The notes under the pieces: model-generated | What the model was told of the DNA's origin: nothing | Database searches by the model: none | Seen by the model: only the letters and a program-made list of their open reading frames with translations | Translations under genes and position numbers: made by a program | Source of the DNA: Cantharellus purpuraceus | Taxonomy: Eukaryota > Basidiomycota > Agaricomycetes > Cantharellales > Hydnaceae | Direction: 5' to 3' | Length of the DNA: 64,000 nucleotides | Assembly (NCBI GenBank): GCA_025174535.1 | Contig: JALBUN010000008.1 | Span: 62,001 to 126,000, forward strand | In this document: in pieces, positions 3,703 to 56,275 of the stretch | Layout: each line of letters starts with the position of its first letter | Numbering within the stretch: position 1 is the first letter of the stretch

Positions 3703-3759
3703 GGAGCATGCCCTGCCTGACAAACCGGTTTTCAGTTCTTGAATCATGTACTGTAGGGC

Positions 3760-4883
3760 TCACAAGTGATATTTTACACGCACACTCCCTTGTCCATCAG
3801 ACTGAAACCAAAACAGCCATGCCTGAACACCACGGCCTTCCTGAGGAGATCATCAGTGACCATGGCACCCAGTTTGTCTCTCAATTTATGCATGAGCTCA
3901 ATAAGCTTTTGGGGATCAAGGTTGCAGCATCCACAGCATATCATCCACAAACCGATGGTCAGACAGAAAGGGTCAATCAAGAAATTGAACAATACTTGAG
4001 GCTTTTCATCAATCAGCGCCAGGATGACTGGATTGAGTGGGTTCCTCTTGCTGAATTCACATACAACAACCGCATCTACTCCTCCATGCAATCAACCCCC
4101 TTCATGCTTGATACAGGCCAACACCCAAGGCTTGGGCTAGAGCCAATCCAAGAGACACAACTTGAAGCACTGGAAGAATTCACTAAGCATATGGAGATGG
4201 CCACCACTGAGGCTTGCTCTGCCCTGGAAAAGGCAGCAGATGATATGGCACGATTCTATGATGCCCATCAGCAAGCAGCCCCAGTATACAAGCTTGGTGA
4301 CAAGGTCTGGCTCAACGCACAAAATATCACCACCACCCGTCCAACCAAGAAACTTGATCACAAATGGTTAGGACCATATGTGATTAATAAGGTGGTCTTG
4401 CGAAATGCCTATGGCCTACAACTTCCCCCAATCTTTGGCTGCACTCATCCAGTGTTCTCTGTTGTCTTACTCCATCCTTATGAAAAGGATCCCATCCCTG
4501 AATGCCAGTCATCTCCTCCACCACCTCCAGTCATTCGAGATGGAGTACAGGAATATGAAGTTGAGAAGATCCTTGACAGCAGAGTTTTCTGAGGAAGACT
4601 GGAATACCTGGTGTGTTGGAAGGGCTATGGAGCTGCTGACGACCTCTGGATCCCAGCTAAGGATGCCAGTGGGGCTAGAAGGTGCATTGCAGACTTCCAT
4701 CGGGAGAATCCTGAAGCCCCAAGGCATATTTCGGCAGCCACCTATGCGGCTCTTCCCTTCAGATGCTTTGAGAACTTCACAGAACCTCCCAAACAGGTCC
4801 TCTTTGATTGGACAGCTGGCAGGAACCCAACATGTGTTATTGGACACATTTCAGAGCCGCAGAATAGGCACAGTGAAGCTTAG
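3760..4883 (+). pseudogene. pol: G1 integrase C-terminal two-thirds with chromodomain
   Basis: The second catalytic Asp (ISDHGTQF) and the Glu (DGQTERVNQEI) of the DDE core are present, followed by the GPY-type region (KWLGPYVINKVV) and a chromodomain (YEVEKILDSRVF ... LVCWKGYGAADDLW ... FHRENP). The zinc-binding N-terminus and first catalytic Asp are lost in the gag-integrase deletion. An in-frame TGA at 4590-4592 lies inside the chromodomain. The chromodomain places the element in the chromoviruses, whose integrases target modified histones. Confidence 0.9.
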
Positions 4884-5852: not shown

Positions 5853-6863
5853 TCAATGCAGACTATATGCAGAAAAGTAATACGCTTCTTAGCAGCAAGA
5901 AATGAATAAGACTTCCAGAGTCTAGAGTTCATGGACATAGGGGTCCAGATAGACGCTTGTTCAGAAATACAACAAATACATATATACAATCTATTTTCCT
6001 CAAATTTTACACAATACACTTCAATTCAAACTTATTTTCATATTTCAACATGACTCTCAAATTTTGCACAATATACTAGATTAAAAGATATTTTGATATT
6101 TTGGCATGATTCTCAAAAATAATTCTTTTTTTCCCTATTTAGTGGTGACAACTCTCTTGAAGGAACATCCAAATATCATTGATTCTTTCTTATACAATAC
6201 TTGTAACATAATTTGAACTATCTTTAATCCCCACCTGGTATTTGTATATCTAAATGACCTATATAATACCAATTATATTAATACATACATTCCTATTATA
6301 TTCATATAAACAGTTATGTTCATCTCAACCAAATATCTTATCTTTTAAAGTTTATTAAAATATAGAATATATGTTTATATTTATGAAAATTTCACACATC
6401 CAAAATCTTTTAAGATATCCAAATTGTAACTCCCTGGCTTTATGTATCATTGAAATTCTGATGTATATCTCATATACATCAGAATATTGTATACTGACAT
6501 GATTTGAACAAGTGTCATATTCCAAAAAGAGGGGAATGCACTTAGAGGCTAAAGGAAGTAGGTGGATGAATCCAACTGTCCAACCAGTGGCACTCTGAAG
6601 TGGGTAACAGCAATGTGTGAAGTAGTCTAGAAACTGCTTCACATGAGTTCAAGCTTCTAATGCTCTGCAAAGGCAGTACACACTAGTAACTTAAACAAGA
6701 GCACTAATGGCAGGACTATCGGCAGACAATCTCACCCTGTAGATTTGTAGTCATGTGAGGCAGATACTACACTCATGCCCAAAGCAGGAATATCACTACT
6801 TCGAGTGCAATCAAGTACAGTTACACAACTGTAAAAGATCCTTGAACTGGTAATCAACAGTTA
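5853..6863 (-). repeat. Repeat A, copy 2 (partial, inverted), split by a MITE
   Basis: Reverse complement of roughly positions 560-1000 of copy 1. It is abutted on the left by the G1 3' LTR and on the right by the reverse transcriptase of a family-B gypsy, so both ends are truncated. The MITE at 5952-6517 interrupts it at a TA within CCAGATATTCC, as shown by the uninterrupted copies. Confidence 0.8.
5952..6517. mobile_element. MITE-1, copy 1 (566 bp, TA target duplication)
   Basis: Flanked by TA at 5950-5951 and 6518-6519, with terminal inverted repeats GACGCTTGTTCAGAA / TGACACTTGTTCAAA (the right end has one extra base). It is AT-rich and non-coding. A perfect 14-bp inverted repeat with a 3-nt loop lies near 6454-6484 (ATTCTGATGTATAT and its complement). 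The second copy, in opposite orientation, is 53996-54561 and is also 566 bp. Features fit a non-autonomous Tc1/mariner-type element. Confidence 0.85.
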
Positions 6864-8640
6864 GATTCGCATTTGTCAGTGCAGGCAAAGAGGCCATGTT
6901 TTCAGAGACATTGGAGTACTTCTCAGACATGTGTCCAATGTTCATCTTCATTATCCAAATATACCAAAATGTTGTCTAAGTAAACAAGGACAGTAACATC
7001 AAGGAGGTTGGTGAAGGTATCATTCATGAACCACTGGAAGGTGGCCAGAGCATTGGTTAGTCCAAAGGGCATGACACACCATTCAAAAGATTCATATCGA
7101 GTGTGGAAAGTCATTTTCCACTCATCACCTTGAATGTGGACTAGATGGTAGGCATGTCAGAGATCTATTTTGGAATAGATCTTAGCCTTTCATGGGCTCT
7201 CGAGTAGGTCTGCGGTGTGGGGTATTGGGTATTGGTCTTTCTTAGTGATCTTGAGTCCACAGAAGTTGACGCATAAACGGAGTGATCCGTCCTTTTTGCG
7301 GACAAATAGGACCGGAGCTCCATGGGGGGATAAGAATGGGCAGATGAAGCCCATGGCCAAGTTCTTGTCTATGAATATCTGGAGAGCCAGTAGCTCTTTT
7401 TGGGATAGCGAGTAGATAGGGCCAAGCGGAGGGGTGGAGTTGTCATCCAACTCAATCTTGAGATCGTATGGTCAGTGTTCTACTAGGGAGTCAGCTTTAG
7501 ACTTGCTGAACACATCAGTGAACTTGTGATACTCCTTAGGAGCCATAGATAGGTCCAGTGGAGTTGATCGAGTAGAATGGGTGGTGAGGAGCATTGGATT
7601 GGAGAGGTGAACCTGGAATGTTTGTGAGCCATCCAATTTGCTTAGTCTGGCAAAGACCATAGCATCCACCATCAATATAGACAGAGGGGGAGATAGAGTA
7701 TCTATCAGAGCAGAGTCAGTGGAGGCAGAAGATAATTTCACACCTAAAGTTGCTGGTGACATCTGTTATGCACTAGGTCCAATTGGGGGTCAGAGATTGG
7801 GTCGGAAGTTGGGTTGGAGGTTGGGTTGGAGTTGGAGAGGGAGTCAGGGTACATCATGGGGGTTGGAATGGACTTGGCTTCAGCTTATGTGCTGCACCCT
7901 CACTAATACTGGTGTCTGAGATTTTGGAGACGGAGTACGACTTAGAGAATTAGGATCAGACTTAGGAACTAGGCGTGATTCAATATTCAAACTGGGGAAT
8001 GAGGTCCCCAGTTGGGCAACTTAAATACATATTTGAAATCTAATAATAATTACTCCGGTGATGGGTCTCCAAGGCTGACAGCCTTACATGAGTATGTCTG
8101 AGTCCAACGGGGATGGATGTCCAGGTTCCTATGGTGATGCTGATGCATCAATCGGAACCAGAGACAGATGGGTGAGATTTGGCAGTGACAATCGGACAGA
8201 TAAATGGAGACATGACAGTTCCCAAATGGAGTATAGATTTCATATGCATGGGGATCTGAGTGGATCAGACGGGGATCTGGGTGTTAATGAATAGTCATAA
8301 CAACATCAGGGATGACACAGCCTGCACTGGAGAATGGAATGTGATATGGCCCAATGCCCAGTCAATCAACAGATTGTAGCAGGTGGGCCAATTATGTCTG
8401 AGAACCACAGAACAGCTGGAGCCAAGTGGAGTAACATAGAATGTAAGGTTCTGGATTTCTCCAACAGAAAAACAGATAGACAGATCTATAGCTTGTGAAA
8501 TAACAGCATTAGTAGTGCCATCAAATAATTGGAGCAATATTGGAGTTATGGTGTATGTATGGAGTTTATGTGAATTGGAAAAAGAGGAATCAAGGAAACA
8601 GTGAGTAGAACCGGAGTCAATTAATGCTTGGATAGCGGTA
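6864..8640 (-). pseudogene. pol: Family-B gypsy protease and reverse transcriptase, minus strand, broken
   Basis: Reading leftward: an aspartic protease ([12 protein letters not shown] near 8600, then [15 protein letters not shown]), the linker (PKEYHKFTDVFSKSKADSL), and reverse transcriptase ([47 protein letters not shown]). The catalytic YLDD reads YLDN, which would inactivate it. The frame changes several times and the rest of RT, RNase H and integrase are missing at 6864, where repeat A begins. A solo LTR-B (7764-8302) sits between protease and RT. Confidence 0.85.
7764..8302 (-). repeat. Solo LTR-B with intact 5-bp target duplication
   Basis: 539 bp, TGTTATGCAC...GTCATAACA, flanked by ACATC at 7759-7763 and at 8303-8307. 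Removing it joins the protease and RT parts of the family-B pol. It is oriented like the host element (minus). A TATTTAA box is readable on the minus strand near 8025. A small frame at 8088-8294 is only LTR sequence. Confidence 0.93.
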
Positions 8641-12840: not shown

Positions 12841-15047
12841 ATGAGGGCCCAGCATTTGCACCCATATGTGCATAACCAATCAATGCTCAGTTTCTTCTTC
12901 CAGAAAGCTTCATAAGGGGATATTCCAAGATAGTGTTATAAGACACAATTCCTGATAAAATTAATGGTATGAATCATAGATACCCAGAATTTGTTAGGAA
13001 GATCAGCCTCATGTCATAAGGTCAATGCTCCTTCCTGTAACATCCTATTGTAATGTTCGGCAATCCCATTGTGTTCTGGAGTGTATGGTGAGGTCATCTC
13101 ATGAATACCAAGCTTACAGCACATCTCTTTGAAATCCTTCCCCATATATTCTCCTCCATTATCCATCCTGATCTTCTTAACATCAGCCTTCTTCTGATGC
13201 AACAACCATGCCATGTATCTCTTGAATGATTCCATGACTGTCTTGGATTCTTTGTCCTTGAGAAATTTGATGCTAGCCATACATGTTGCTAGATCAATTC
13301 AGATGATAAAATATTTGTAGCCACCAATGGATAACTTGAATGGTCTGCATATATCAGATACAATGATGTCGCCAATATTAGATGGTAGGGTTTCAGATTT
13401 CTGAAATGGAGTTCAGGTCTGTTCCCATAATGGACAGTTATTACACTGCATGATGGGACTATAATGGACATTTGGAGTGAATCCATCTGCTGTATAAAGC
13501 CTCTTCATTGCTTCTAGAGTGGAATATCCAGTGTAAGTGAACAGATTGTTGATGTTCAGTCCTTGTGCCAGGATCTGTCCATTAAGTGAAAATGCCAATT
13601 GATATTTACTGAATAACACATTGACATTGGCATTTGTCATTCATCCAACTGAGAGTAAATTGGCATGTAGTTTGGGTGCATATATGACATTGGTGAGCAT
13701 GATGTGAAGATCAGGCAATTCAAATGAGGGGTCAGATATGAGCTTTATACATATAGACCCACTTTGATTGGCAGTGAATGACTCCCTGCTGACGGTTTGT
13801 ATCATGACAGGTGGGATGTTGTTCATGTTGGAAAACAATGGTAAGTTTCCAGATAAAAGACCAGATGCAGCAGAATCCACCAGCCATGTGTGTGTATTGT
13901 TATGGATTGATGATGGAGCTGAGATGGACACTTGGGTTGGTATGACAGATAGTTTGGTGATCAAGGCAATCATTATAATGACCTTCATTTGTCCTGCAAG
14001 GTGAGCTGGTGTATTGGTCATAGGTTTATCTGTCTGAATGTTATGTTGTAGTTGATTTATAGTCTGTATAGGTCTTTGTATAAGAAACTGAGGAGTTTGG
14101 GCATGAAATCCTTGGTTCTGTTTCCAAGGCATCTGTCCTTTGAGTCCACCACCCTATGCATAGCATCAAGAAGCCATATGTCCCAATTTGCCACAGTGGT
14201 TGCATCATAACATGTTATATTGATTGGATCTAGGTATGTTGTTATAATAGCTATTGTTGGGTAGTGGAATGTAGGGATTTTGTGTCAATATCTTCAGTTG
14301 TAGAGGTCAGATAGGCCTAGACCGTACAGTGAATGCAGTGCCAGCTTGGACAGATATTCCCAGGGCACTGAGGTCTGCTTCATGAGCCTCAAGACATTCT
14401 TCAATCTCCTCTGGCTTATGTGTGATCATCTGGATCATTTGTGCAATTGGACACCAGGATTCAGGTACATTCCTGAGTAAAGTGGCCACATATGTGGAAT
14501 CAGGTATTGTTTCACCCATCCATTTCAACTGATTCCCATATTCCTTCATGATTGTGATATATGTGATGACAGACTGGCCTTCAATCATATGGTAATTCTT
14601 GTATTTCATTCTAATAATGCTGATCTTGCTTGGGTCAGTAGATTTGAATTTACTGATGAGGATGACCCATGCATCTCTGGTGATGTCAGTATCATCAATT
14701 GCACTCTGGAGTTTGGGTGAGATGCAGAACAAAATCTGGTTATATGCAACATTGTTATGATCATTCCATTCATCAATGAGTTGTGATAATGGTGTAGTGC
14801 CAATATGTGGAATGTTATTGGTTATAGTAACCAATTGGTCTGTGAGTAAGGGTAAAACATCAGTGCTGAGAATAGTAGCATATAAGCTGCAATCTCTCAC
14901 CATGGCTAAAAGTTCCCTTTTCCAGGAAATCCAGTTGTCTTGTCCCAATTTGGGTTTGAGATCTCAAAATTTGTGAACATCATGTTTTGGGTGAGAAGTA
15001 GTGAGTGCAACTTGAGTCATGGTAGATCAATGAGACTCTTAATCTGT
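12841..15047 (-). pseudogene. gag-pol: Ty1/copia gag-protease-integrase, minus strand, truncated and stopped
   Basis: From right to left: gag starting at ATG 15019 (MTQVALTTSHPK) with a TGA soon after, then DNWISWKRELLAMV and a UBN2-type capsid, a knuckle CNHCGKLGHMAS-stop-C near 14180-14220, a protease (WLVDSAASGLLSG near 13870), the GAG-pre-integrase region, and the integrase core (IRMDNGGEYMGKDFKEM, SPYTPEHNGIAEHYNR). The order protease-integrase before RT is diagnostic of copia. RT and RNase H are missing; the integrase runs into LTR-E at 12841. Confidence 0.9.
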
Positions 15048-24073: not shown

Positions 24074-26646
24074 ATGGCCGTTGTAGGCATAGATCTTGGC
24101 AATCTCGCAAGCAAGGTGAGTCTCCAATGATAGTTGCATACGTTCTTACTCACACAACAGCAGATTGGTGTTGCCAGACATCGGGGAATAGACATCATAA
24201 CAAATGAAGTTTCTAATCGAGCTACGCCGTGTGTATTCCGTGTCTTGTCTGGACCGATCGTACTCGTCATTGACTCCGGGTTTCTTCAGGTCACTGGTTT
24301 CGTTTGGCGTCAAGCAGCGGTCCATTGGTGAAGCAGCAAAGACCCAGGAGACGTCGAATTTCAAAAATACAGTTGGATCTCTCAAGCGGCTAATTGGCAG
24401 ATCATCGACTGATCCAGAAGTGCTCAACGTTGAGAAAAAGTTTATCAATGCAACCTTGGTGGATGCAAATGGCACAGTTGGTGTCAAGGTAGGTTTGACG
24501 CGTTCGTATCGTATCATTTTGCTAAGCTATCATTTAGGTGAACTATCTTGGTGAGCCTACCGTGTTCACGGCGACGCAACTGGTGGCAATGTTTCTGGGG
24601 AAGCTTCGGGATATCGCTGCCAAGGAATTAAAACAGGTCGTCTCGGACGTCGTCATTGCTGTTCCTGGCTGGTATACTGATGTTCAGAGACGGGCTGTCA
24701 TTGACGCTGCCAACATTGCCAACCTCAATCCTCTCCGCATCATCAACGATACTACTGCTGTTGCCCTCGGCTATGGGATTACAAAATCAGATCTCCCAGA
24801 GCCGGACCAGACGCCTCGACATGTGGTCTTCGTGGATGTCGGACACTCTAACTATTCTGTCGCGGTTGTTGCGTTCTGCAAAGGTCAGCTTCATGTTAAG
24901 AGCACTGCATATGACCGCCACCTCGGAGGGCGCGACATCGACTACGCTCTTGTGAGACATTTCGCGGAGGAGTTTAAGACGAAGTATAGGATCGATGTCC
25001 TTTCCAATCCCAAGGCAACCTTCCGTCTTGCTACTCAGGTTGAGCGTCTCAAGAAGATTTTGTCGGCCAACGCTGAGGCTCCGCTCTCTGTCGAGTCCAT
25101 TATGAATGATATCGATGCGTCGTCCAAACTGTCCCGGGAACAGCTCGAAGGTCTCATCGCCGGTCTTCTTGACCGGATCGTGAAACCTCTTGAGAAGGCG
25201 CTCCAAGACGCCAGTCTCACCGCTGATCAGGTAGATGCCATTGAGCTGGTTGGAGGTTCTACCCGTGTCCCTGCAATCCGCCAGCGTATTCAGTCTGTGT
25301 TCCCGAGCAAGACGCTCTCAACGACCTTGAACCAGGACGAGGCTATTGCACGAGGTTCCACTTTTGCATGTGCTATGCTCTCCCCCGTTTTCCGTGTTCG
25401 CGACTTTGCATTCCACGACATTGCACCCTATTCAATCAAGATTTGCTGGGACAGGTCGGAAGGAGCTCCAGAAGAAGATAATGAACTTGAGGTCTTCCCT
25501 CGGGGTAACGCTATTCCGTCCACCAAGATCCTCAGTTTCTTCCGGGACAAGCCGTTCGATCTCGAGGCGCGTTATACCGAACCATCTATGCTCCCAGGTG
25601 CGATTAATCCCTGGATTGCCAACTTCCACGCAAAGAGTGTACACGTGGTAGACACCAAAGGCGAATCAAGCATCGTGAAGGTCAAGACCCGACTTAACCC
25701 TCATGGTCTCCTAAGTTTCGAGGGTGCATACGTTGAGGAGGAGATTGTTGAAAAGGACGAGTCTATGGAAGTAGATAGTGCACCTGATGGAGAAGCATCC
25801 GCCCCGAAGAAGAAGAAACGAGTCATTAAGAAGGACATTCCTTTTGTCACGGGAACGACGTCTCTGGACAAGAGTGTCCTCGAAGCTCTTACTGAGAAAG
25901 AGGGTCAAATGCATGCTGCTGACAAGCTTGTCATGGAGACTGAGGTTCGTATTTATTTATCTGCAATACTGTGCCTGTGTGACTGAGGCTGATATGCCTT
26001 AAAGGACCGCAAAAACGCGCTCGAGGAGTACGTGTATGACATGCGCAGCAAGCTTGAGGACCGTTACGCATCGTTTGTACAGCCTGCAGAGAAGGAGAAA
26101 CTTTTGGCAGCGTCACAGGAAGCTGAAGACTGGCTGTACACGGAAGAGGGTGAAGATGCACCCAAGTCGGCATACGTGTCTCGCCTGGAGACACTCCACG
26201 CCCTTGGTGACCCGATCGCAGCGCGGTGGCGTGAGTCTGAGGAGCGCCCGAAGGCGACAAGTCAGCTTCGCGAGACAATCAATACATTTCTGGCGCAAGC
26301 TACTTCCGGAGAGGAGCGGTACGCACACCTAGATGATAAGGAAAAGGAGAGCGTCATCGAGCGCGCCGCAACAACGCAAAAATGGCTTGACGATCAGATC
26401 GCCAGGCAGGCTGAGCGGTCAAAGAATGTTGATCCGGCGCTGACGAGTGCAGAGATATTCAAGAAGAGGGATGACTTGATTTACTTTGCGACGCCCATTT
26501 TCAACAAGCCGAAGCCAAAGCCAAAGCTCGAGACCCCACCTGCTACGAATGGGACGCAGACTCCCCAGAACCAGGAGACACCTGACGCTGCTCCCGCTAG
26601 TGGCGAAGGTGCACCCACTGGTCCTCCGGAGATGGATGTAGATTAG
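24074..26646 (+). CDS. SSE1: Hsp110 family chaperone (SSE1-like nucleotide exchange factor for Hsp70), five exons, 784 aa
   Basis: Exons 24074-24115, 24164-24228, 24290-24488, 24538-25944 and 26005-26646; all phases close (785 codons with stop). The protein starts MAVVGIDLGNLASKIGVARH, as in Sse1 proteins. The actin-like ATPase domain spans residues 1 to about 390: phosphate motif DVGHSNYSVAVV, GRDIDYALVRHF, and the adenosine motif ELVGGSTRVPAIRQR near residue 338. The beta domain is followed by an acidic loop (KDESMEVDSAPDGE, near 505) and a Lys/Arg run, then the helical bundle and an acidic tail ending PPEMDVD. Hsp110 releases ADP from cytosolic Hsp70 and holds unfolded proteins. Exon 4 begins with GTG (Val), so it is not a start codon. 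No breaks were seen; the gene looks functional. Confidence 0.93.
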
Positions 26647-45894: not shown

Positions 45895-47220
45895 CTGCAA
45901 AAATGTCAAAGAAACCATATCAGATGGCTGTAGGATCACCCATGTATGCAGCAATAACCACATGGCCAGATATCAGCTTTGCTGTTCAGCAACTGAGCCA
46001 ATACACATCCAATCCAGGATGTGAGCAATGAGAGGCAGCAAAACGTGTAATATGGTACCTTAAAGGCACATGCAATTTTTGTCTGGTACTGGAGGAAAAG
46101 CCAACATAAAACTCACCAGGTATACTGACTCCAACTGGGGAAACAACCCTGACAGACATTGATCAATATCGGGTTACCTTTTCAGCCTAGGCAAAGGGGT
46201 TATATCTTGGAGTTCCAAAAAACAGCAGACAGTTGCTGCCTCATCCTGTAAAGCTGATATATGGCAACAAATCATTGTGCAAAGGAAGCATTATGGTTGA
46301 GGAGCTTACTCAACTGTCTTTCCCTACCTCAAAAGGGAGCTACCATGATTTTTTGTGACAATCTTGGAACTATCACACTGACCAAGGATGCATCTTTCCA
46401 TGTATGATTGAAGCACATAGATGTGGCACATCATTTTGTCAGAGAGCGGGTTGGATTTGTGAGATTAAGTAGACAAATAGCAGTTGGTAGAACAATAGCA
46501 TAGTATTCCAATATGTAATTGGAATCTTTGAGAAGCAAAAGCAGTGAGTCAGTGGGATCAATATGATCTGGAATGACTGGAGAACTACATGTCTGCATGG
46601 GCATATTTATGTAAATAAAAGTGGACACAATATTTGGAACATACATGATTTGTTATGATCACATGTTTATAGATAGGAGAGAAACTGACCGTGTGTGAAA
46701 TATTAGTGAATGGAGAGGTGCAAAAAAGAGATGTGGTTGGATTTGAATTTACAAGTAATCTATAGTAATGAGAAAAAATAAAACTTGGTGTATGGGTCCA
46801 TAACTCCTGAATGCATGCAGGGGTTCATTGTATGGGCAGATGTTCATGTGTATGATGATAACATGATCATTCCTCAAGACTGGGATTGGACAGAGCATGA
46901 CGATTAGAATATGAGGCATGACTTCAATAATGCACATGTTGATCAATATTAGCAAGATCCAGTATTATTTGTGATATGGAGCTTGAGGCAATAGGTCAAT
47001 AGGTGTGATGGCAATTGAGAGTAAATGTTGATGGGGATATTATGAACCATGCACATGTTTTACAATAGAGATGAATCAAATAACTTTCAAACATTTACCC
47101 ACCCACCTGATGCCTGCAGATGCACTTACAAAGCCCCTTACTGGCCAAAAACACATAAAATTCTGGGACATGATGGGTCTTACACAGAAGGAAAGTGGGA
47201 CTTGTTAGATCGAGGGGGAG
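45895..47220 (+). pseudogene. pol: Ty1/copia pol C-terminus (RT end and RNase H), split by a solo LTR-C
   Basis: Reads PYQMAVGSPMYAAITTWPDI and FAVQQLSQYTSNPG (end of RT), then SGYLFSLGKGVISWSSKKQQ, TVAASSCKAD, IDVAHHFVRERVG (RNase H) with stops. It continues beyond the LTR-C insertion as INQITFKHLPTHLMPADALT, the usual copia pol end. A purine tract (GATCGAGGGGGAG) and the start of a 3' LTR follow at 47221. The upstream parts of this element are absent. Confidence 0.88.
46458..47064 (-). repeat. Solo LTR-C inside copia RNase H
   Basis: 607 bp, same sequence and orientation on the plus strand as 15048-15653. It separates RERVG from INQITFKH of the copia pol. No clean 5-bp duplication (GGATT left, ATAGA right), so either the flanks have mutated or a rearrangement followed insertion. 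Confidence 0.85.
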
Positions 47221-47345
47221 TGTTGGAATATGCTCTAACAAGTACATATACATCCACAGCATCTATCAGACTAGCTAGGTGCTGAAGACACGAGTATATT
47301 TTCCTCAGTTGTTTTATACCACAACTGAGACTGATATCTATCAGA
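47221..47345 (+). repeat. Start of a copia 3' LTR, truncated
   Basis: TGTTGGAATATGCTCTAACA directly after the purine tract. Similarity to LTR-type sequence cannot be followed beyond about 47345. Confidence 0.5.
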
Positions 47346-47686
47346 TCTTAACAGCCATGCCAATGCATCTCATACCACCACACTTCACAGTAGATGATGA
47401 TGGTGTGCGAGTTGAGAATGTTGATGTACACGAGCTGTTTCTGTGGCTGCAGGAGCATGTTGAGGGTGTCATGTATTGGAGCAGTGTGAGGCAGGGGGTT
47501 GTAGTGGGTGGGGGAGGAGGATAATAGTGCCTTGGAGTGTTGGGGGTTGTGGTGGGTGTGGGGATGGGTGGGCAAGTTAGAGTACATGGACATGTCCATC
47601 ATCATAGTGGCACCCACTGCTTCTACCATCACCTCCACACCCCCTATGCTCTTCTCAATCACCTGCAGTGTCTCCATGGCCATTGT
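47346..47686. other. Unassigned stretch between copia and family-E elements
   Basis: A plus frame contains HFTVDDDGVRVENVDVHELF and WLQEHVEGVMYW, which read like protein, but no family was recognised. CpG-poor, so probably repeat-derived. Confidence 0.3.
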
Positions 47687-47968
47687 TGTAAGTTGTGCCT
47701 TAGTTCACACCATTATACAGAACTCAACCAAGTATATTGGTTGGGTGATGTGTTGTACAGTGTGGTTTTTAGCTAAGTTCTATCTACTATAAGTGGACCC
47801 ACACATGTACTAGGTCCATTGGCTTACATAATAACTATACATATGCACCCTATGGGCACATACATCTACTAAGAGGACAACATTCCTGAAGGGAATGCTA
47901 CATATATCAATTATACTTATATACTATAGTAAGTAAGTACCTTGGGTACTTACACCCTCCCCTTTTTG
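47687..47968 (-). repeat. 3' LTR-E and polypurine tract (copy E4)
   Basis: 268 bp LTR (47687-47954, TGTAAGTACCC...GCACAACTTACA on the minus strand) preceded on that strand by AAAAAGGGGAGGG. Confidence 0.88.
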
Positions 47969-47996
47969 AATGAGACATCATCTGATTCAGTACCTT

Positions 47997-49740
47997 TTAA
48001 TTATACAGCTCCTTATGAAGCTGCTCTGATGAGTTGGTATCCATATGATTGTCTTGATCATACGGCTCTGGAGGGGGACAGCTCTCAGTCATCCCTGATG
48101 TTGTTGTGGTATCCTCATCCACTTGAATGGATGAGGAGGATGCAATTGCTACCACAGTGTCCCAATTGAGTTCATGATTAAGTTGATTGTGACCTAAATG
48201 CTTAGCAAGAGAGCATTTAGCAGCTTTATGAGCTGCTTGGGAGACTCCCTGAGTCTCCTGCTTCTGCTTACCAACCCTTGTGGGCTGGTTAAAAGCTGTG
48301 CCAGAGGTGATGTGTTTAGCAAACTCCTCTAAACTAGCAGCATGATTGGGGGTGATGCCTCCCAATTGCCCAAACCAGAGCACAAGCTCTAATTCAGTAT
48401 GTTCTTTGGGGGAGTGATTCCCCCAATCATACACTCCAGTGACTGAAGTGCAAAGTGTCACCAAGAGTTGGTGAGAACTTTTGGCCACTGGTCAATAATT
48501 CCCAGTGGCTGGGATTCTGGAACATAGTCCAGAGGTTCTTCTTGAATGCAGAAGAACCCTTCTTAGAAGTGGCCTTTTGCAGCCACATCCATATATCCAC
48601 ATCAGACAAGTTCATGGTGCCATCTGACTCCTGTCAGATGGCCAGGGGGACCCCATTAGGGTTTACTTGCCACCCCTGTATAAGGGCAAGTGTGTCTACT
48701 GGTGTGGTTGGTAGAGTGACAATAAGACTCATGTTGTCAGCACAAGCTAGCAGAGTCATTCTTTTGATTACTCTGCACATTGGTACAGTCTGTTCTGCGA
48801 ATGGTGTGGCCAATGCCTTTTTATGGAGCGATATGAACTCTGGAGTGTCCATATCACAGATGTCAAACCAGTCTGCCCTGATAGGGGCAGACTTGCCCAG
48901 AGGTCATGGCAGGTAGCCAGTGACTGCTCTGGGGGGGTCAGCTGCAGTCATGAACCATGGTGCCCATTTGGGGAATGATTTCCCCACATTGGCATGCTTG
49001 AGAGCATGCCTGAAATCATCCCAGCATTTGCAATAATTTGCATGCTGGGCTTCTTCCAGCATCTTCAATGCTGGGTCTTTTAAGGTACAGCTGGCATCAC
49101 CAGCCATGTATTCCTTTTGAAGCTGATCAATCTCAGCTTCAATTTTGGATAGGGCAAACTCAAAGAGTTTGCCCAGTTGCTTAGCACCCTTGGGAATGCT
49201 AGCCAGGAGGAGACCATGATCATGGTCATATCCCTCCCAGATTGGGTCGGTGTTGTCCCAATCTTGACCCTCAAACCCTCGAGGGTTGACCTGAGGCAAT
49301 TTTCTCAGGAGATTGTCCTCTTTGGTGGGGTTGATTGTTTCCTGTGATGATGAAGCCACGGGTTGTGATCGCATAATGGCAGGCAATGATTTGCTTGCCA
49401 TAGCATGTGATAGTGATGCTACTGGGGCCAAGTGCACTGTCATGAGCTTGGTTTTGAACATAGGAGGTGCTCTACCTGCAGCCTCCTTCAGTGTTTTTAA
49501 CTTGTCTCTGAGATGGGTTACTTTGGACTTCTCATTGTCGAGAAGTCCTTTGAGTTCTTGGACCTGTGCAAACAGGTCCAAGTTATCTTTGTACATCTTA
49601 TCGTAATTTTCATGATAAGGTGTTGCAACATCATCTTCAATGTCACATATAAGTTGCAGCCATGTGACTCTTAATGCTCTTTCCACTGAAGCAGTGGAGA
49701 GATATAGTTGGCCCCCATTTTGAGCCTTGATTAAGTGCAA
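47997..49740 (-). pseudogene. Family-E ORF3, about 580 codons, sense orientation 3' of pol
   Basis: One frame runs from 49740 (MHLIKAQNGGQLYLSTASVE) to 48427 with TGA/TAG-type stops at 48904-48906, 48634-48636 and 48427-48429; the C-terminal part (48420-47997) is one frame over. It contains a coiled coil (QELKGLLDNEKSKVTHLRDK), then EGQDWDNTDPIWEGYDHDHG, a region with WDDFRHALKHANVGKSFPKW, and an acidic tail (SSSSIQVDED, PPPEPYDQD). The C-terminus recurs at 35964-36505, so it is a regular part of the family. No retroviral domain and no other family recognised. Confidence 0.6.
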
Positions 49741-50467
49741 TATGCATGCATTGGATGTTCGTCTTGATCATCCATCATCTCCCTTCTGGGAGATGACATT
49801 TTAATGGAGGGGGGGTTGTGGTGGTTCAAAGAAACACTGCTAGCCCTTTATGGCTGAGCTTGAAAATTCTTTATTGAGAATTTTTCCAGTGACTATGTCA
49901 CATGGGTGTAATGCAATTAATTATCACTTACCCTTTTTGTGCTACTATGAGTAGCATGACAGTGAACTGCTCCCTATGGAAGCAGTTTTTACTGCCATCA
50001 AGCTGCCTGTTGTTATGGCAGCTCTATCCTCATCTAGGAACTACCATTAATCAAGGTAGTTCCTCCTCCCCTTGTTGAGCTACTGTCATTGATGGCAGCT
50101 CTTTGTTGCATCTCACTAGGAGCTACCTTTATTCTTGGTAGCTCCACTTCTCCCCCTTGAGCCCCATTAAATCTTTGGGGCTCTGTCTCTCTGAGAACTA
50201 CCATCTATGAGGTAGTTCTCACACTCGAGTCACCCCTCAAAGCTCTAAATTATTGTCTAGAGCTTCTAGGTCCTTACACAACATGTAAGGTTCCCAGGTG
50301 ACGTCTCCCAACATCCATAGAACTTGAAATTCAAGTTCTTTATTGCTTATCTATCGATGAGTGATGATTTCATCAACAAGCCACTCTTGCTTGTCATCAT
50401 TCCCAAAGTCGTAAAATGACTTTGCTTCCCATTTCAGGAATCTCATCTCATCATTTGGCACATATGG
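49741..50467. other. Hairpin-rich spacer between integrase and ORF3 of family E
   Basis: No frame of note. Between 49941 and 50350 at least nine exact short inverted repeats follow each other: AACTGCT/AGCAGTT (49965-49987), AGCTGCC/GGCAGCT (50001-50023), AGGAACTACC/GGTAGTTCCT (50036-50064), GGAGCTACC/GGTAGCTCC (50119-50145), GAGCCCCA/TGGGGCTC (50159-50183), GAGAACTACC/GGTAGTTCTC (50193-50220), AGCTCTA/TAGAGCT (50241-50264), CCTTACA/TGTAAGG (50272-50290), AGAACTTGA/TCAAGTTCT (50329-50349). Confidence 0.85.
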
Positions 50468-52063
50468 TCAAATGAGACTGATGTGGAATGTAGGCGTAAT
50501 ATGCCTACTAGTCATTTCTGGTGGCAGTTCCAGTGTCACCATTGAAGCTTTATTATGGGCTTCAATTACTTTATAGGGCCTAATATACTTGGGCACTAGT
50601 TTGCTGGTTCTACCCTTAGGTAGAGTCAGGTTTTTTGTTGAGAGGTAGACTTTGTCACCTCTCTGGAAGGTTGAACCTTCCGGACATTTCTTATTGGCAT
50701 GAAACAGCTGAACGATGTGACTTTCTATAATCACATCATGCACCACTAGCAGGTTCATTTGACACCCTTGAACTTGGTGTCATTGTTAATGGGCATGCCT
50801 ATTCTAGGCACATACCCATAGTTAAGCTCAAACGGAGTAAACCCCATTGTTGAGCTTATGTTGGAGTTTAGCACAAGCTCCACCATTGGACACTTGTGTG
50901 CCCAATCTTTCTGATCACTTTGTACAACTGTATGAAGTATTTGGCCAATGGAATGATTCACTTGTTCTGTTGCTCCATCCATTTGTGGATGGAATGCTGT
51001 GGACATGATTTTGGATCTTGATCAGACATGATTGAGTCTGGTACACTGTGAAGGTGTACAACTTCTTTAAGGAATAGCCATGCTACTCCTTTCACTGTCA
51101 CATGCATATCCATAGGTATTATATATACCTGCAATGTGAAGCAATCTATGACTACCAGTAGGTAGTTATAGTTGTTCAATTTTGGTAATGGACCCATAAA
51201 GTCCATACCTATTGATTGCCAGGGCCGTTCCGGTACTGGCAAGCTATGAAGAAGCCCTATGGGTTTCTTTGTACTGTCTTTATTCATTTGGCACTTTGTG
51301 CATGAAGTGCAGAATGATTTGACATTGGTGGTCATGCCTGGCCACCAGTACAACCATCAAATGTAATTTGTGGTCTTTAGTTGACCAAAATGGCCAACTA
51401 CTTGGTGTGCATGGTTGATTATTATCTCAACCAGCCTCCTCCCCTTCAGAAACACTGAACAGGGTATACAGACGACATTGTGTTTGATCTTATCCTTGCT
51501 CAGGAACATATGTGCTTTCCTGAGCTCAGTGAATACCATCTCTAGGTGGTGTTCATGCTCTTGTATAGTATGAGAGTACACAAATATGTCATCCAGATAC
51601 ACATGGATGAATCCCCTGATATATTCTTGGAAAATGGCAGTCATGAGCCACTGAAATGTCAAGGGGGCATTGCAGTCCCCTTGCTGCATGACTTGACTGA
51701 CGAATGTCCCCAAGACAGTTGCAAACACCATCTTGGGTATATCCATCGGTCTGAAGCATATCTGTTTGTATGCCTCAGACATATTGAGTTTAGATCAATA
51801 TGTACAGTGGGCAACATCATGTCTGATGTTGTCCTGATTGGGGAAGGGCATTATGTCCTTCACCATATTATCATTCTGTTCACACAAGTCGAACACAGTG
51901 CGGGGCTTTCCATTTTTCTTGGGAATGGATAGCATTGGTACAACCTGTCAGGCTGTAGCCGATACCCCCCATTTAGCCGTGGTGTATTGCAGAACTTTCT
52001 CTGAGAGTTCTGAGTGTTCTGGGCACTTACCCATAATTTATGGTACTCCTGCTCCCAATGCAC
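50468..52063 (-). pseudogene. pol: Family-E pol: RT and integrase, RNase H deleted
   Basis: RT keeps IDMSEAYKQI-type start (MSEAYKQICFRPMD), CNAPLTFQWLMTAIF and the catalytic VYLDDIFVYS, then FLSKDKIKH. The sequence jumps straight into the integrase zinc domain (NHAHQVVGHFGQLKT, CTSCTKCQMNK), so RNase H is lost. Integrase has MDFMGPLPKL (Asp 1), SDQDPK (Asp 2) and DGATEQVNHSI (Glu); about 18 codons between Asp 2 and HPQ are deleted and the frame shifts near 51000. The C-terminal part (FQRGDKVYLSTKNL ... YIRPYKVIEAHN) shows no chromodomain, unlike G1 and family B. Confidence 0.88.
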
Positions 52064-55000
52064 ACTAATTGCAGTGCAATGGGTTGCTCTAGCATGAAGG
52101 TTTTTATACCTGTCACCTGTGTGAATTCAGGGGATATCATTATCCCCTCACTTCCACTGTCTAATGGACAGTGGGCTAGTGTTCCACCAATCTCCCAATA
52201 CCCAGAGATTGTTTTATTGTCTTTGCATGGTCTATCTGGTCACACTGTCAACTTCTGTTGGCTCCTATGATTATACATAGGTTTGGCTGATCTGTCGATG
52301 CTGACAGCAGCTATATGCAGCTGTCGTGATTCCCTGCTTGTCAGGAATCTTGTTGCACTACAGAAACACACTGCATAGGTGTGTTTCGGTGTAATTCAAT
52401 CATTGGGTCGAATTCATATCACATTAGAACGATACATTGGTGTAGCCTACTCTTTGGGGGCATCATCTTGGTCATCCAATTTGTATGGGGTGATCTCCTC
52501 GTTCCATTCATCAGCTACTTCTATAACTGGCGTTTTTCCCTCTAGATGGTCCTTGGGGTCATCCATTGCTTCTTCATGTTCTCCCTCTATCAGGGAGAAT
52601 CCATCTACATTGTCCTCCACTATGTGTGAGGACACATCCTTTCAGACCGCAGCTGACCTTATGTTGCCCTTTAGTTTGGGGCAGCTGGGTCACATGTGAC
52701 CTGTCTGGCTGCATTTGTAGCACACAACATTACTGGTAATGTTGTTCAATTAATCACCACTCACATGCGCTGGTGGCTTTGATTGATAATTACCCTTCAA
52801 AAGGTAATTGTTGGAATTAGACCCAGAGCTTCCATTATGGTGTTCCAACCTTGACACACTTGCTTGTCATGAGTGTGTGTTGGGAGCTGTATACACACGT
52901 CCATGGGGCATGGGTCAACTCCCCATATTCATCATACCAGTAGTTCTATTGACTACTGGTCTATGGGTTGAGGAGGACACGTTAGTCACATTCTCTGGGC
53001 ATCGCATACCATGGTGGTATTGCGTTGCTTCCTCTATCATTTGAGCAGTTTTGTACAACTGCTTGATACTGCTGAACTCAGCATTGAAGCCCTTCTTGAG
53101 GACTTTTTGTCTCAGAGGTTCATGCATTGTGGTTATGAACCTCTTCCTGCATGTGTATGCATCTGGTGGCATTATCATGCAGCCTGCATACTTATCTAGG
53201 TCATTCATTAATTTTTGAACAGTCCTTTGACCCGGTATTACAGAGTCAAATTTATTTGACACATGATGATGCGTCAGGGTGTGTAGGAATCTATGCTGCA
53301 ATCCTTGGATTGCAGTTTCCAGGGTCCAGTCTTGGACTGCCCTGTCATAGTGTTCTACATTCCTGTAGAACCATTCCTGGGCCTCACCTTTAAGGTGAGT
53401 GTCTAAGTACAATAGCTGAAGGTTTTTACTTGATGGCCCTAGGAGATTATTCATCTTCAGCCATCGTAGCATACCTGCTACAAATATCTCAAACTCTTTG
53501 AGATCTGCGCCTCCTGCATATTGCTCAGGAGGTGATACTTTAATGCCCACTTTGGTGAGTACAGACTTCTCTGGGTCTGTATCTCTATTATCAATTATAG
53601 CTACTTGCACCATGTGAGTAATGCCATCAATAGGATCAATTGTGTCCAATTGATCCGGTATGCCTTGACCTTCTAGGGTCAATGGCACTGATTGTTCCCT
53701 GTTATGGGGAACATCTTCTTGAGGTACCTATTGGGTATCTCATTGCTCATGGCAGGTGTCTCCTGAAAGGCCCACAGCTTGTATGTACTGATAACTGTTC
53801 AGTGCATGTTGCAACTGTTGGTTTAAATTGACAGCCACATTAAGCTCTTGCTGGGGCCACTGCTCTCTAAACAGCTGGCCAAGCTCCTGCTCTGCATGTT
53901 TAGCCTTCCATTCAAGGGCTAACCTGTGTTTACGAGAAGCCTCAACTTCTTGTTGTTTCCATAGCTCGATCTCTTGATCGAGCTCCTTTGCCATAAATGC
54001 TTGTTCAGAATCATGTCAGTATACAATATTCTGATGTATATGAGATATACATCAGAATTTCAATGATACATAAAGCCAGGGAGTTACAATTTGGATATCT
54101 TAAAAGATTTCAGATGTGTGAAATTTTTATAAATATAAACATATATTCTATATTTTAATAAACTTTAAAAGATAAGATATTTGGTTGAGATGAACATAAC
54201 TGTTTATATGAATATAACAGTAATGTATGTATTAATATAATTGGTATTATATAGGTTATTTAGATATACAAATACCAGGTGGGGATTAAAGATAGTTCAA
54301 ATTATGTTACAAGTATTGTATAAGAAAGAATCAATGATATTTGGATGTTCCCTCAAGAGAGTTGCCACCACTAAATGGGGAAAAAACAATTATTTTTGAG
54401 AATTATGCCAAAATATCAAAATATGTTTTAATCTAGTATATTGTGTAAAATTTGAGAATCATGTTGAAATATGAAAATAAGTTTTAATCTAAGTGTGTTG
54501 TGTAAAATTTGAGGAAAATAGATTGTATATACATATTTGTTGTATTTCTGAACAAGCGTTATAGATTGAGGAGTTTCCTCTTCAATCTGGATTGGTAATC
54601 CTTGCCTCACAGGGATTACTGGGTCTCTAATTCCCTCCATTGGGGGAATTTCATTTCCTCTGCTCAACTGATCATTTGGTTGGATCCCCTCACCCCAGGG
54701 AGATCCAGACTCTCTGGATTCAGATTCCTGTTGAGAATCGGCAATGCAACTTGCATTGCTCAGAGTTCTCTTGGAGCGATTTTAACATTGTTCCTAGCTC
54801 TGCAATTTGCTGCCCCATAGTAGTGGCAGCATGCCCTGCTTTGGCAGCCATCTTAGCTGCCTGAGCACTAGCTTTGCTAATGCTCTTCATCTCATGTTGA
54901 TTATGCATGAGTTGTTCAGCCAATCTTGCAATTGACCTGTGGGTTTCATGCCGCTCCGTGCTGTGCAATTCCCTAGTAGAAGTATTGCTACTTCTACTTG

Positions 55001-55491
55001 TGCTTATACATTGAGCACATTCCTTTCCTTTAGGAACATTGGAGACAGTTGATGACTGTCTCCTCCTTTCTTCTCTAATCAAAGAACCACTCGATGAAGG
55101 GTTCGACAGATGATCTATTTTCTGATCATCTGTGCAGTCTCAATCATGGTGACTCTCTTCTAGAGTCTTCCTTATGAGAAGTCCCTGCAACTTCTCTAGG
55201 GTCTAGCTCCCCTTCATGGGAGCTTCTGCTGCTGGGTGCCACCATTCATCATTTATGATGTCCTGGGTGCTGCCAGTATGACTCACTCTACTGCAAGCCA
55301 TTATTATGATGACTCCTTTCTTTCTTCTATCTTTGTAGACTAACTAAGTTAGTTTACTAGTTGCTCACTTTTATGAGCGACTGGGGGGGTTGGTATATGT
55401 CTGTACACCAGCAATAGTTGGTTTTCTAGTATTGACTAGAAAACTTCAATAATGAGGAAGAATTGATTCTTCCTTTGGAAGTTCAAAAAAG
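52064..55491 (-). pseudogene. gag: Family-E gag and gag-pol linker (copy E4), split by MITE-1
   Basis: N-terminal part (MIREERRRQSSTVSNVPKGK, HETHRSIARLAEQLMHNQHE, 55082-54720), helical linker (MAKELDQEIELWKQQEVEAS, 53994-53740), capsid (LKGEAQEWFYRNVEHYD, RKRFITTMHEPLRQKVLKK, 53688-52915), a CCHC knuckle CYKCSQTGHM-stop-PSC (TGA at 52690-52692, inside the palindrome 52688-52701) and an acidic linker to protease. MITE-1 lies between linker and N-terminus. The protease itself was not clearly found. Confidence 0.85.
53996..54561. mobile_element. MITE-1, copy 2 (566 bp), inside family-E gag
   Basis: Flanked by TA at 53994-53995 and 54562-54563; the uninterrupted site GCCATAGATTGAGG is seen at 28740. 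Ends AATGCTTGTTCAGAA and, inverted, TAACGCTTGTTCAGAA. Same length as copy 1 and opposite orientation; near-identical internally, including the ATTCTGATGTATAT hairpin. Confidence 0.88.
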
Positions 55492-55574
55492 TGTAAATGT
55501 GTGTCTTAGTTCACACCATTGCACAGAACTCAATGAAGTATATTGGTTGGGCGATGTGTTGTACAGTGTGGTAG
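55492..55574 (-). repeat. 5' LTR-E of copy E4, truncated
   Basis: TGTAAATGTGTGTCTTAG... (the 3' end of the LTR as read on the minus strand), cut at 55574 by LTR-F. The leader after it (CTTTTTTGAACTTCC on the minus strand) has no complement in the LTR, so no self-priming signal as in G1 and B. Confidence 0.8.
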
Positions 55575-56275
55575 TGTTACATCCTGTAACACCAAGTCCA
55601 AACTCCTGACCTCCATCTCCTTCATCTCCATCCCCATCAACTCCACCTCTGTCAACTCCACCTCCATCAACCCTGAACTCCTGTTACATCTTGTAACACT
55701 GAGTCTGATCTCCAGATCCCATCTCCATCTCCTTTTACTCCACCTCCATTAACTCCACCTCCATCAACCCCAAACTCCATTATTGTTCTCCTTATAAGTA
55801 GTTTTCTTCTTATGGGTTACAACAAGCCGTTACCTTTTATATTAGTTTGGACTTGAGTCCAAACTCCAAACTCCTTTCTGTGTTGTATTCCATATCCATC
55901 TTATTGTCCTATCACTTTTAGTTTATCATTCATTTCTTTACATACTTATATGGGCTACTCTCTGTATGTTACAGCAGTTTGTATATCAACTAAGATTCCC
56001 CATCAGCTTCTTGGTTGCTAGCTTCTTGACAAGTATCTTCTTGACAAGTCAAACTCTGGATCCTGATTCAACTCCGTACTCCAATCTCTGAAATATTGGA
56101 CTGACATTTTGAGGGGGCACAACACACAAGTTGAAGCCAAGTCCACTTGATCCGACTCAAGAGTTATTGTTGACATCTGTCTCTGGTTGAACTGGAACAG
56201 TAAAGTCCCACCCTATTCCTCACTACCATCTGAACTCCAGTGACTGTATGGGAACCACCTTTTCCCTATTAAATT
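55575..56275 (+). repeat. LTR-F, copy 2, with leader
   Basis: Starts with the hairpin TGTTACATCCTGTAACA, then tandem CTCCACCTCCATCAAC-like units and a conserved AT-rich part to about 56108 (ATATTGGACTGACA). A leader (GGGGGCACAACACACAAGTTG...) to 56275 is shared with copy 3 but not with copy 1. No coding sequence is attached, so the superfamily is unknown. Confidence 0.65.

Follow-up and report, generated by a model that had tools for sequence, protein, structure and literature searches.

Short perfect hairpins throughout a Ty3/gypsy retrotransposon family of Cantharellus purpuraceus, with exactly inverted loops between copies

We analysed a stretch of 64,000 nt from the fungus Cantharellus purpuraceus (GCA_025174535.1, contig JALBUN010000008.1, positions 62,001-126,000, forward strand; hereafter the window), which holds a degenerate Ty3/gypsy retrotransposon of a family that we call E. 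Within the sampled sequence, an excess of short perfect hairpins is specific to family E. The stems pair almost perfectly by Watson-Crick rules and without strand preference, the excess is confined to short loops, some loops recur in exactly inverted form between copies, and the stems decay in dead copies. We regard strand switching during the copying cycle of E, filtered by protein selection, as the likeliest origin of these hairpins, with a confidence just short of even. Unless another cut is given, a hairpin is a perfect inverted repeat with a stem of at least 7 bp and a loop of at most 15 nt; genome-wide counts refer to the assembly of 40.15 Mb in 50 contigs.

Hairpin excess in family E

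The window copy of E contains 98 perfect inverted repeats (99 if a repeat starting on its last base is included), or 12-13 per kb, against a mean of 9.1 (standard deviation, sd, 3.2; maximum 18) in 60 dinucleotide shuffles. Stems of at least 9 bp number 31, compared with 0.75 in such shuffles. For loops of 3-11 nt, the ratio of observed to shuffled counts is 1.3-1.4 for stems of 4-5, 3.2 for 6, 11 for 7, 25 for 8 and about 100 or more for 9-10; the longest E stem in this copy has 11 bp. A preliminary description of this DNA had named 11 arm pairs, one of them a palindrome, and all are exact and lie where it placed them, among them the following.

48619-48642: hairpin GCCATCTGAC/GTCAGATGGC, exact
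49525-49582: hairpins GGACTTCTC/GAGAAGTCC and (C)TTGGACCTG(T)/(A)CAGGTCCAA(G), exact
52688-52745: palindrome GGTCACATGTGACC and hairpin (A)CAACATTAC/GTAATGTTG(T), exact

Protein-domain matches place the sense strand of E on the minus strand, with the order Ty3 capsid, reverse transcriptase (RT), integrase zinc domain with a weak integrase core, SH3_Tf2-1 and then a third open reading frame (ORF), ORF3. The parts, in window coordinates, are:

47687-55574, minus strand: family E element, window copy, a degenerate Ty3/gypsy retrotransposon with Ty3_capsid, RVT_1, Integrase_H2C2 and SH3_Tf2-1 matches
52915-53688, minus strand: gag ORF of 257 aa with a Ty3_capsid match and 11 perfect hairpins
51357-51794, minus strand: RT piece (domain match), directly joined to the integrase zinc domain, the RNase H part being missing in this copy
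50958-51356, minus strand: integrase (IN) piece (domain match), H2C2 and weak rve
50468-50779, minus strand: SH3_Tf2-1 domain (domain match)
49768-50467, minus strand: spacer with the highest hairpin density by count, 18.6 per kb
48904-49767, minus strand: ORF3, by count 14 hairpins against 1.9 in shuffles
54000-54560: nested repeat, not E, most likely a solo long terminal repeat (LTR) of another LTR family of about 7.2 kb, with a hairpin of 14-bp stem and 3-nt loop
28122-36800: second nest of E pieces (subfamilies E2 and E3, by similarity), hairpin-dense too by count

The claim that codon use does not explain the density holds for three of the four coding pieces compared. We used shuffles that keep the protein and the codon counts and let dinucleotide counts differ by 8 in sum, 100 for each E piece. 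The observed hairpins exceed the shuffle maxima in gag (11; mean 1.3, maximum 5), ORF3 (14; maximum 6) and the RT piece (5; mean 0.8, maximum 3), and the IN piece, with 2 (mean 0.7, maximum 3), falls inside the shuffle range. A stricter fixed-neighbour shuffle that moves few codons gave a mean of 5.8 and a maximum of 11 for gag (300 shuffles), equal to the observed 11. Host genes had been described as lacking such hairpins, and the host HSP70 ORF agrees, with 1 hairpin against a mean of 1.1 and a maximum of 4 in 40 codon-and-dinucleotide shuffles.

Density is raised over the whole of E and not in its surroundings. Ten E parts range from 6.4 to 18.6 per kb, which bears out the view that hairpins occur in every part, except that the IN piece does not stand out from its codon shuffles; three non-E stretches of the window have 1.4-1.8 per kb. 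E-like sequence (100,169 bp) holds 1348 inverted repeats, 13.46 per kb, against 433 in 242,115 bp of other sequence, 1.79 per kb, where one E locus that partly overlaps the window (L001) is counted with the window. Eight of 12 hairpin-dense non-E windows of 400 bp have a GC content of at most 0.32. Four of five arbitrary 10-kb genome stretches have 0.4-1.1 per kb, and the fifth reaches 10.0 because it is full of E pieces. Other retroelements of the same genome were an obvious comparison, and all 30 other RVT_1 loci (the best 30 of 150 scored matches, taken irrespective of clade) lie at 0.57-2.59 per kb. Thirty E copies (the best 30 matches, one being the window's own and two near-identical) have a mean of 12.1 per kb in a single piece of about 985 bp. 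Twenty-five of the 27 hairpin centres in this piece occur in two or more copies, so that many hairpins, though not all as first described, are common to the copies. Chance, base composition, codon use, nested repeats or an assembly artefact can practically be dismissed as the source of the excess: E exceeds both dinucleotide and codon shuffles, the density recurs across the 30 copies and in E-like against other sequence, and the sole point on the other side is the raised density of the low-GC nested LTR (5.3 per kb).

In copy L034, RVT_1 is followed by RT_RNaseH pieces and these by H2C2, all on the same strand, so with RNase H taken from L034 family E has the Ty3-type capsid, RT, RNase H and integrase after RT that define Ty3/gypsy elements; alignments of other E copies break at 51485-51488 of the window. 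The terminal repeat of the window copy (47694-47766 and 55500-55572, 92% identical; overall terminal similarity 73-81 bp, 90-92%) is a putative LTR, and the block 47694-47954 also recurs elsewhere in the genome. The element had been taken as continuous over 47687-55574, which does not apply to 54000-54560. Most of the listed E gag places (the 20 best of 152 gag matches were fetched) contain stops, usually TGA. In gag copies the minor-allele frequency is 0.374 in columns with a CpG history and 0.060 in others, figures that still include a misaligned copy, L083, left out of later gag counts. Strong CpG decay, with TG/CA alternation and TGA stops, is seen in the gag copies L066-L085 and in L001-L030; given this decay, CpG pairs were probably present in the founder E stems, which may have exceeded today's in length. 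Relatives of gag outside the genome are known here as proteins only; one of at least 120 has a named organism, Gautieria morchelliformis, and the rest are ena or jgi proteins. ORF3 has a single database relative, P0121 (44% over 75%). With the gag alignment and the RT piece as queries, no DNA of E relatives was found in viral contigs.

Several local arrangements were seen beside these counts. The spacer between pol and ORF3 (49965-50340) has nine hairpins in series, with starts 32-48 bases apart and one gap of 83, and several of the nine have similar but co-varying stems of the GAGCTACC/GGTAGCTC type. In L034 (3168-3307), a 22-base unit (TGGTACCA...TGCAT) stands in a head-to-tail array and so gives six overlapping copies of one hairpin; in L087 (columns 154-193 of the utr alignment), one hairpin arm is duplicated in tandem (12 nt) beside a loop-1 hairpin. 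Four E copies whose match scores are almost the same (C37:29563-30523 on the plus strand, C37:61411-62371 on the minus strand, C1:3856906-3857866 and C35:75197-76147), two of them inverted on contig C37, are probably duplicated host segments. Elsewhere in the window lie a copia-type gag (Retrotran_gag_2, 14307-14948) and the HSP70 ORF (24538-25986), whose nearest match among named species is Hysterangium stoloniferum, at 77-79%, a match that by itself would probably point to a host in Phallomycetidae.

Stem pairing and loop inversions

Taking the majority state of each column over the copies, we found 69 perfect stems of at least 7 in about 4.1 kb, 16.9 per kb. Stems with one mismatch are few: 8 with at least 8 pairs (G.U 2, A.C 3, other 3), and 17 at a looser cut of at least 7 pairs (G.U 7, A.C 5). 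In the window copy the 27 one-mismatch stems comprise 13 A.C, 7 G.U and 7 other, and just outside the stems G.U is not enriched either (6 G.U and 18 A.C, n=76). Stems of at least 7 number 4-10 per loop length at loops of 0-11 nt, 2.0 at 12-14 and 0.3-0.8 beyond 15; the excess thus stops at loops of about 11-14 nt, and E shows no excess of long-range stems. A comparison of predicted folding energy with shuffles, proposed at the outset, shows E to be much more stable on both strands alike. The sense RNA has a mean z of -4.21 over 30 windows of 200 bases and the antisense RNA one of -4.30; four windows in the 5' part of E give -5.16 and -4.69 respectively, compared with 0.0 to 0.4 for two other stretches.

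The hairpins do not behave as a reused or regularly spaced module. Arm sequences are not reused locally above expectation (p 0.16-0.31), gaps between hairpins look random (coefficient of variation 0.99), short direct repeats show no clear excess in E, and Rfam gave no match at the gathering score over 47000-56000. Overlaps between hairpins number 3, where free placement would give 25.7; any model that plants hairpins would expect such a shortage. The conserved part of gag can be aligned with 11 outside relatives (53-70% identical) without a single gap, and because of this the gag stems are not insertions; inserted hairpin units are thereby ruled out for gag. Among 40 aligned gag relatives (of 177, at least 120 being listed), the window's residue has a frequency of 0.67 at stem codons and 0.55 elsewhere (48/217 residues; permutation p for a lower value 0.97), with conservation scored at 9 of the 11 gag hairpins.

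Loops differ between copies in a particular way. Where stems are intact, the loop is nearer to the inverted form in 31 of 2129 comparisons, and in 16 of these the inversion is exact. We then went through three alignments, taking every segment of 3-24 bases, in search of copies that carry the exact reverse complement of the majority. This yielded 14 places with at least three differences, seven of them with at least two transversions: TAT/ATA (twice), TTT/AAA, AAG/CTT, TTC/GAA, ACCC/GGGT and TTGT/ACAA. The three-base cases are loops of stems of at least 7 pairs, and the two four-base cases lie between arms by inspection. One further place, AAC/GTT in a loop, has a single transversion, and the remaining six have transitions only and could reflect CpG decay. 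Under control rules with the same cut of at least two transversions, we found no place for the reverse, none for a fixed transversion and none for the reverse plus transversion (10 places below the cut); the plain complement gave three, all AAA/TTT and TAT/ATA loops, which fit both rules. The places, together with one loop seen in a single orientation, are:

49153-49173: hairpin GGCAAACTC-AAA-GAGTTTGCC, loop at 49162-49164, TTT in most copies and AAA in others, a recurrent inversion
47841-47863: hairpin with loop TAT (47851-47853), ATA in L017
49678-49702: hairpin with loop AAG (49689-49691), CTT in L017
49965-49987: hairpin with loop TAT (49975-49977), ATA in L014 and L025
50795-50811: hairpin with loop TTC/GAA (50802-50804), GAA in L008 and L030
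49275-49278: ACCC in the majority, GGGT in L024 and L026, between inverted-repeat arms by inspection (also L034)
50894-50897: TTGT in the majority, ACAA in L004, between short arms GACAC/GTGTC of L004 by inspection
49117-49142: hairpin of 10-bp stem and 6-nt loop, inversion not seen

Exact inversion depends on loop length: it occurs in 14 of 305 comparisons for 3-nt loops (6 of 16 helices), in 1 of 214 for 4-nt loops (1 of 11 helices) and in none of 1458 for loops of 5-14 nt (0 of 79 helices). Genome-wide, with up to one mismatch, the 6-nt loop at 49117-49142 is found as is at 24 places and inverted at none. The TTT/AAA loop occurs as TTT at 17 places and as AAA at 14, which are not all independent, because one additional change is common to five of them and a second to four. 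A tree of 29 copies (763 columns, with CpG columns and the hairpin itself left out) requires 7 changes to account for the 7 copies with AAA; treated as a three-letter state, the loop needs 8 changes against 7.4 for random labels. Five other non-CpG sites in the tree region with a minor count of 7 average 2.0 changes, and such sites outside it have 3.5 (2 sites) and 1.3 (3 sites); the singleton rate is 0.0074 per site and copy (0.74%). At the centres of odd palindromes with arms of at least 3, complement transversions stand at 13 of 202, against 5 of 236 for other transversions and 27 of 1614 for transitions.

The nested repeat at 54000-54560 bears on when such states arise. Further copies of this repeat of about 560 bases lie at 5951-6516 of the window and in L034 at 208-767, 3704-4274 and 7104-7686, and we take it to be most likely an LTR because several matches form same-strand pairs 6.9-7.6 kb apart. 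Its 14-bp stem, the longest in the E interval, occurs at 297 hairpin sites genome-wide (up to one mismatch), with loop GAG at 255 and CTC at 42. Same-strand pairs 6.8-7.7 kb apart on contigs C1-C20 comprise 12 GAG/GAG, 2 CTC/CTC and 1 mixed pair in a three-LTR array, where about 4.5 mixed pairs of 15 would be expected under independence; the GAG places are the first 100 listed of the 255, and exact matches are complete on C1-C20 only. A further CTC/CTC pair lies on C47, outside that set. If pairs about 7.2 kb apart are the two LTRs of one element, as we take them to be, the loop state of this repeat was mostly set before or at insertion, because the putative pairs mostly agree; inheritance from a few source elements would give the same pattern.

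E stems do not appear to be repaired after insertion. Their columns decay like others (minor-allele frequency 0.074 against 0.079), and a check for compensatory changes, suggested in the preliminary description, returned no excess: 8 changes affect both arms, against 5.4 in shuffles (sd 2.0), and 420 are one-sided. For these paired counts and the tree, L005, near-identical to L006, was dropped, and CpG-like columns were left out where stated. On both grounds we see no repair after insertion, and we rejected maintenance of stems in dead copies.

Explanations for the hairpins

We judge strand switching the likeliest explanation because E shows its expected products, namely perfect, short-spaced stems, no strand preference and inverted loops. 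Family E would have been "palindromised" during its active retrotransposon phase. Where chance had provided a short inverted repeat, the enzyme copying E, most likely its own RT, would sometimes switch to the complementary strand or arm and then back, making a near-palindrome perfect and flipping its loop. Switches that damaged a protein would be lost, leaving hairpins in coding sequence without visible protein cost, and after insertion the dead copies would decay with their stems unmaintained. We infer that the same switching that inverted the loops also built the arms, and that it belongs to the retrotransposition cycle. Of the marks of template switching, E has perfectly complementary arms, no insertions or deletions against relatives (in gag only) and spacer inversion, which is exact only at 3-4 nt. 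The wider proposition, that the E lineage's own copying cycle systematically rewrites its genome, coding sequence included, into perfect DNA-level mini-hairpins, so that a replication-coupled process and protein selection shape the entire element, is possible but on balance doubtful.

Several results speak against this account. A further mark of template switching, arms changed to match their partners between close relatives, did not appear in the paired-change counts. Exact flips are limited to loops of 3-4 nt, while most E hairpins have other loops, and 12 of the 2129 comparisons, at loops of 7-11 nt, are merely closer to the inverted form. Overwriting of arms should cost some residues, yet conservation at the gag stem codons is, if anything, higher. 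A few further sites also show homoplasy on the tree, which has weak support, and part of the apparent recurrence could stem from recombination between copies. Perfect arms accompany 11 of 15 flipped against 49 of 110 unflipped E hairpins, which also fits flipping after insertion. Switching alone, moreover, does not explain the special status of E, because the second repeat has both loop states and yet the 30 other RT loci remain at background density. Of the three causes first offered (a folded genomic RNA, protection from silencing, and mutation that rewrites one arm from its partner), arm copying is best supported, through the exact recurrent loop inversions, although the copying step itself is not seen as an excess of paired changes.

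Selection on the RNA would instead have built stem-loops in the sense transcript through synonymous changes, for packaging, stability or escape from silencing. The E-specific excess, the stems in coding sequence without visible protein cost and a predicted RNA far below its shuffles (mean z -4.2 over the 30 windows) would all follow from it, and sense-strand loops do end in A in 11 of 13 four-base cases and 37 of 76 of 3-11 nt, in a strand that is itself A-rich. We nevertheless consider it unlikely, because few stems have a mismatch, these show no surplus of G.U relative to A.C (7 against 13 of 27 in the window copy; 2 against 3 of 8 and 7 against 5 of 17 in the majority state), the strands are symmetric and the excess of stems does not reach beyond loops of about 11-14 nt. 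The lack of G.U enrichment outside stems and of long-range pairing tells against a folded genomic RNA as well, as does the decay of stems in dead copies, which dead copies would show anyway. Selection could also have favoured hairpins in the DNA itself, in single-stranded complementary DNA (cDNA) or supercoiled duplex, for instance as cDNA protection or protein-binding sites. Such strand-symmetric, perfect Watson-Crick stems would fit the symmetry, perfection, short loops and E-specificity just as strand switching does. The arms, however, are not reused nearby above expectation, the hairpins are spread over coding and non-coding parts alike, and this selection alone does not predict loop inversions; we rate it as improbable. 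Either form of selection could act alone or together with switching. Loop inversion may, with a lower probability still, be a host process after insertion (cruciform or replication switching) unrelated to the origin of the hairpins. The commoner perfect arms of flipped copies, the two loop states of a non-E hairpin and the recurrent stem-loop-associated microinversions described for chloroplast DNA (PMC3123225) would suit it; the agreement of the other family's putative LTR pairs (14 of 15 on C1-C20) and the unrepaired stems of dead copies would not.

Known systems and significance

Neither perfect inverted repeats in coding DNA nor the inversion of loops through template switching is new in itself. 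In Saccharomyces cerevisiae genes, template switching between short inverted repeats leads to homogenised arms and inverted spacers (PMC8604942); as in E, the repeats are perfect, have arms of 7 bp and more and lie in coding sequence, and some events recur. As that paper presents them, the yeast events are isolated and affect 39 genes, whereas E carries about 13-17 hairpins per kb over the whole element, has exact inversions only at 3-4 nt and lacks an excess of paired arm changes. According to PMC8794818, template switching creates and maintains RNA hairpins, and loop inversions, typically of 4-nt loops, are taken as support. Hairpins perfected by switching and inverted loops would link that system to E; the cases it describes concern ribosomal RNA and microRNA genes, DNA replication and rare loop inversions, and in E inversions are recurrent. 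In yeast without RNase H2, quasi-palindrome mutagenesis extends the identity between inverted-repeat arms (PMC3820800), there by a host polymerase in a mutant background. Chloroplast DNA undergoes recurrent small inversions at stem-loop-forming palindromes, as described in PMC3123225, where chloroplast genes do not appear as tiled by hairpins, unlike E; the avian inversions studied in that paper itself are reported as not associated with stem-loops.

The nearest published puzzle that we found is that of the coding palindromes of Nematomorpha mitochondrial genes, for which PMC6649704 names switching as one possible mechanism that cannot explain the lineage specificity. There, as in E, many perfect inverted repeats lie in conserved coding sequence and both arms encode conserved residues (for E, in gag); as given in that source, the nematomorph arms are 15-142 bp and mitochondrial, whereas those of E are mostly 7-11 bp in a nuclear retrotransposon.

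The genomes of RNA viruses can have genome-scale ordered RNA structure, with folding energy well below shuffles across coding sequence. E resembles them in folding energy but differs in having neither strand preference nor G.U tolerance. Among the top-ranked matches of the literature searched, with few subscription journals, no nuclear retrotransposon family tiled with hairpins was found.

If the hairpins of E are tied to reverse transcription, its decayed copies within one genome would amount to a natural archive of strand switches at hairpins, in which loop length, stem length and timing could be measured while the same genome supplies control elements. If selection is responsible instead, E would be a strong case of a retrotransposon structured throughout its genome.

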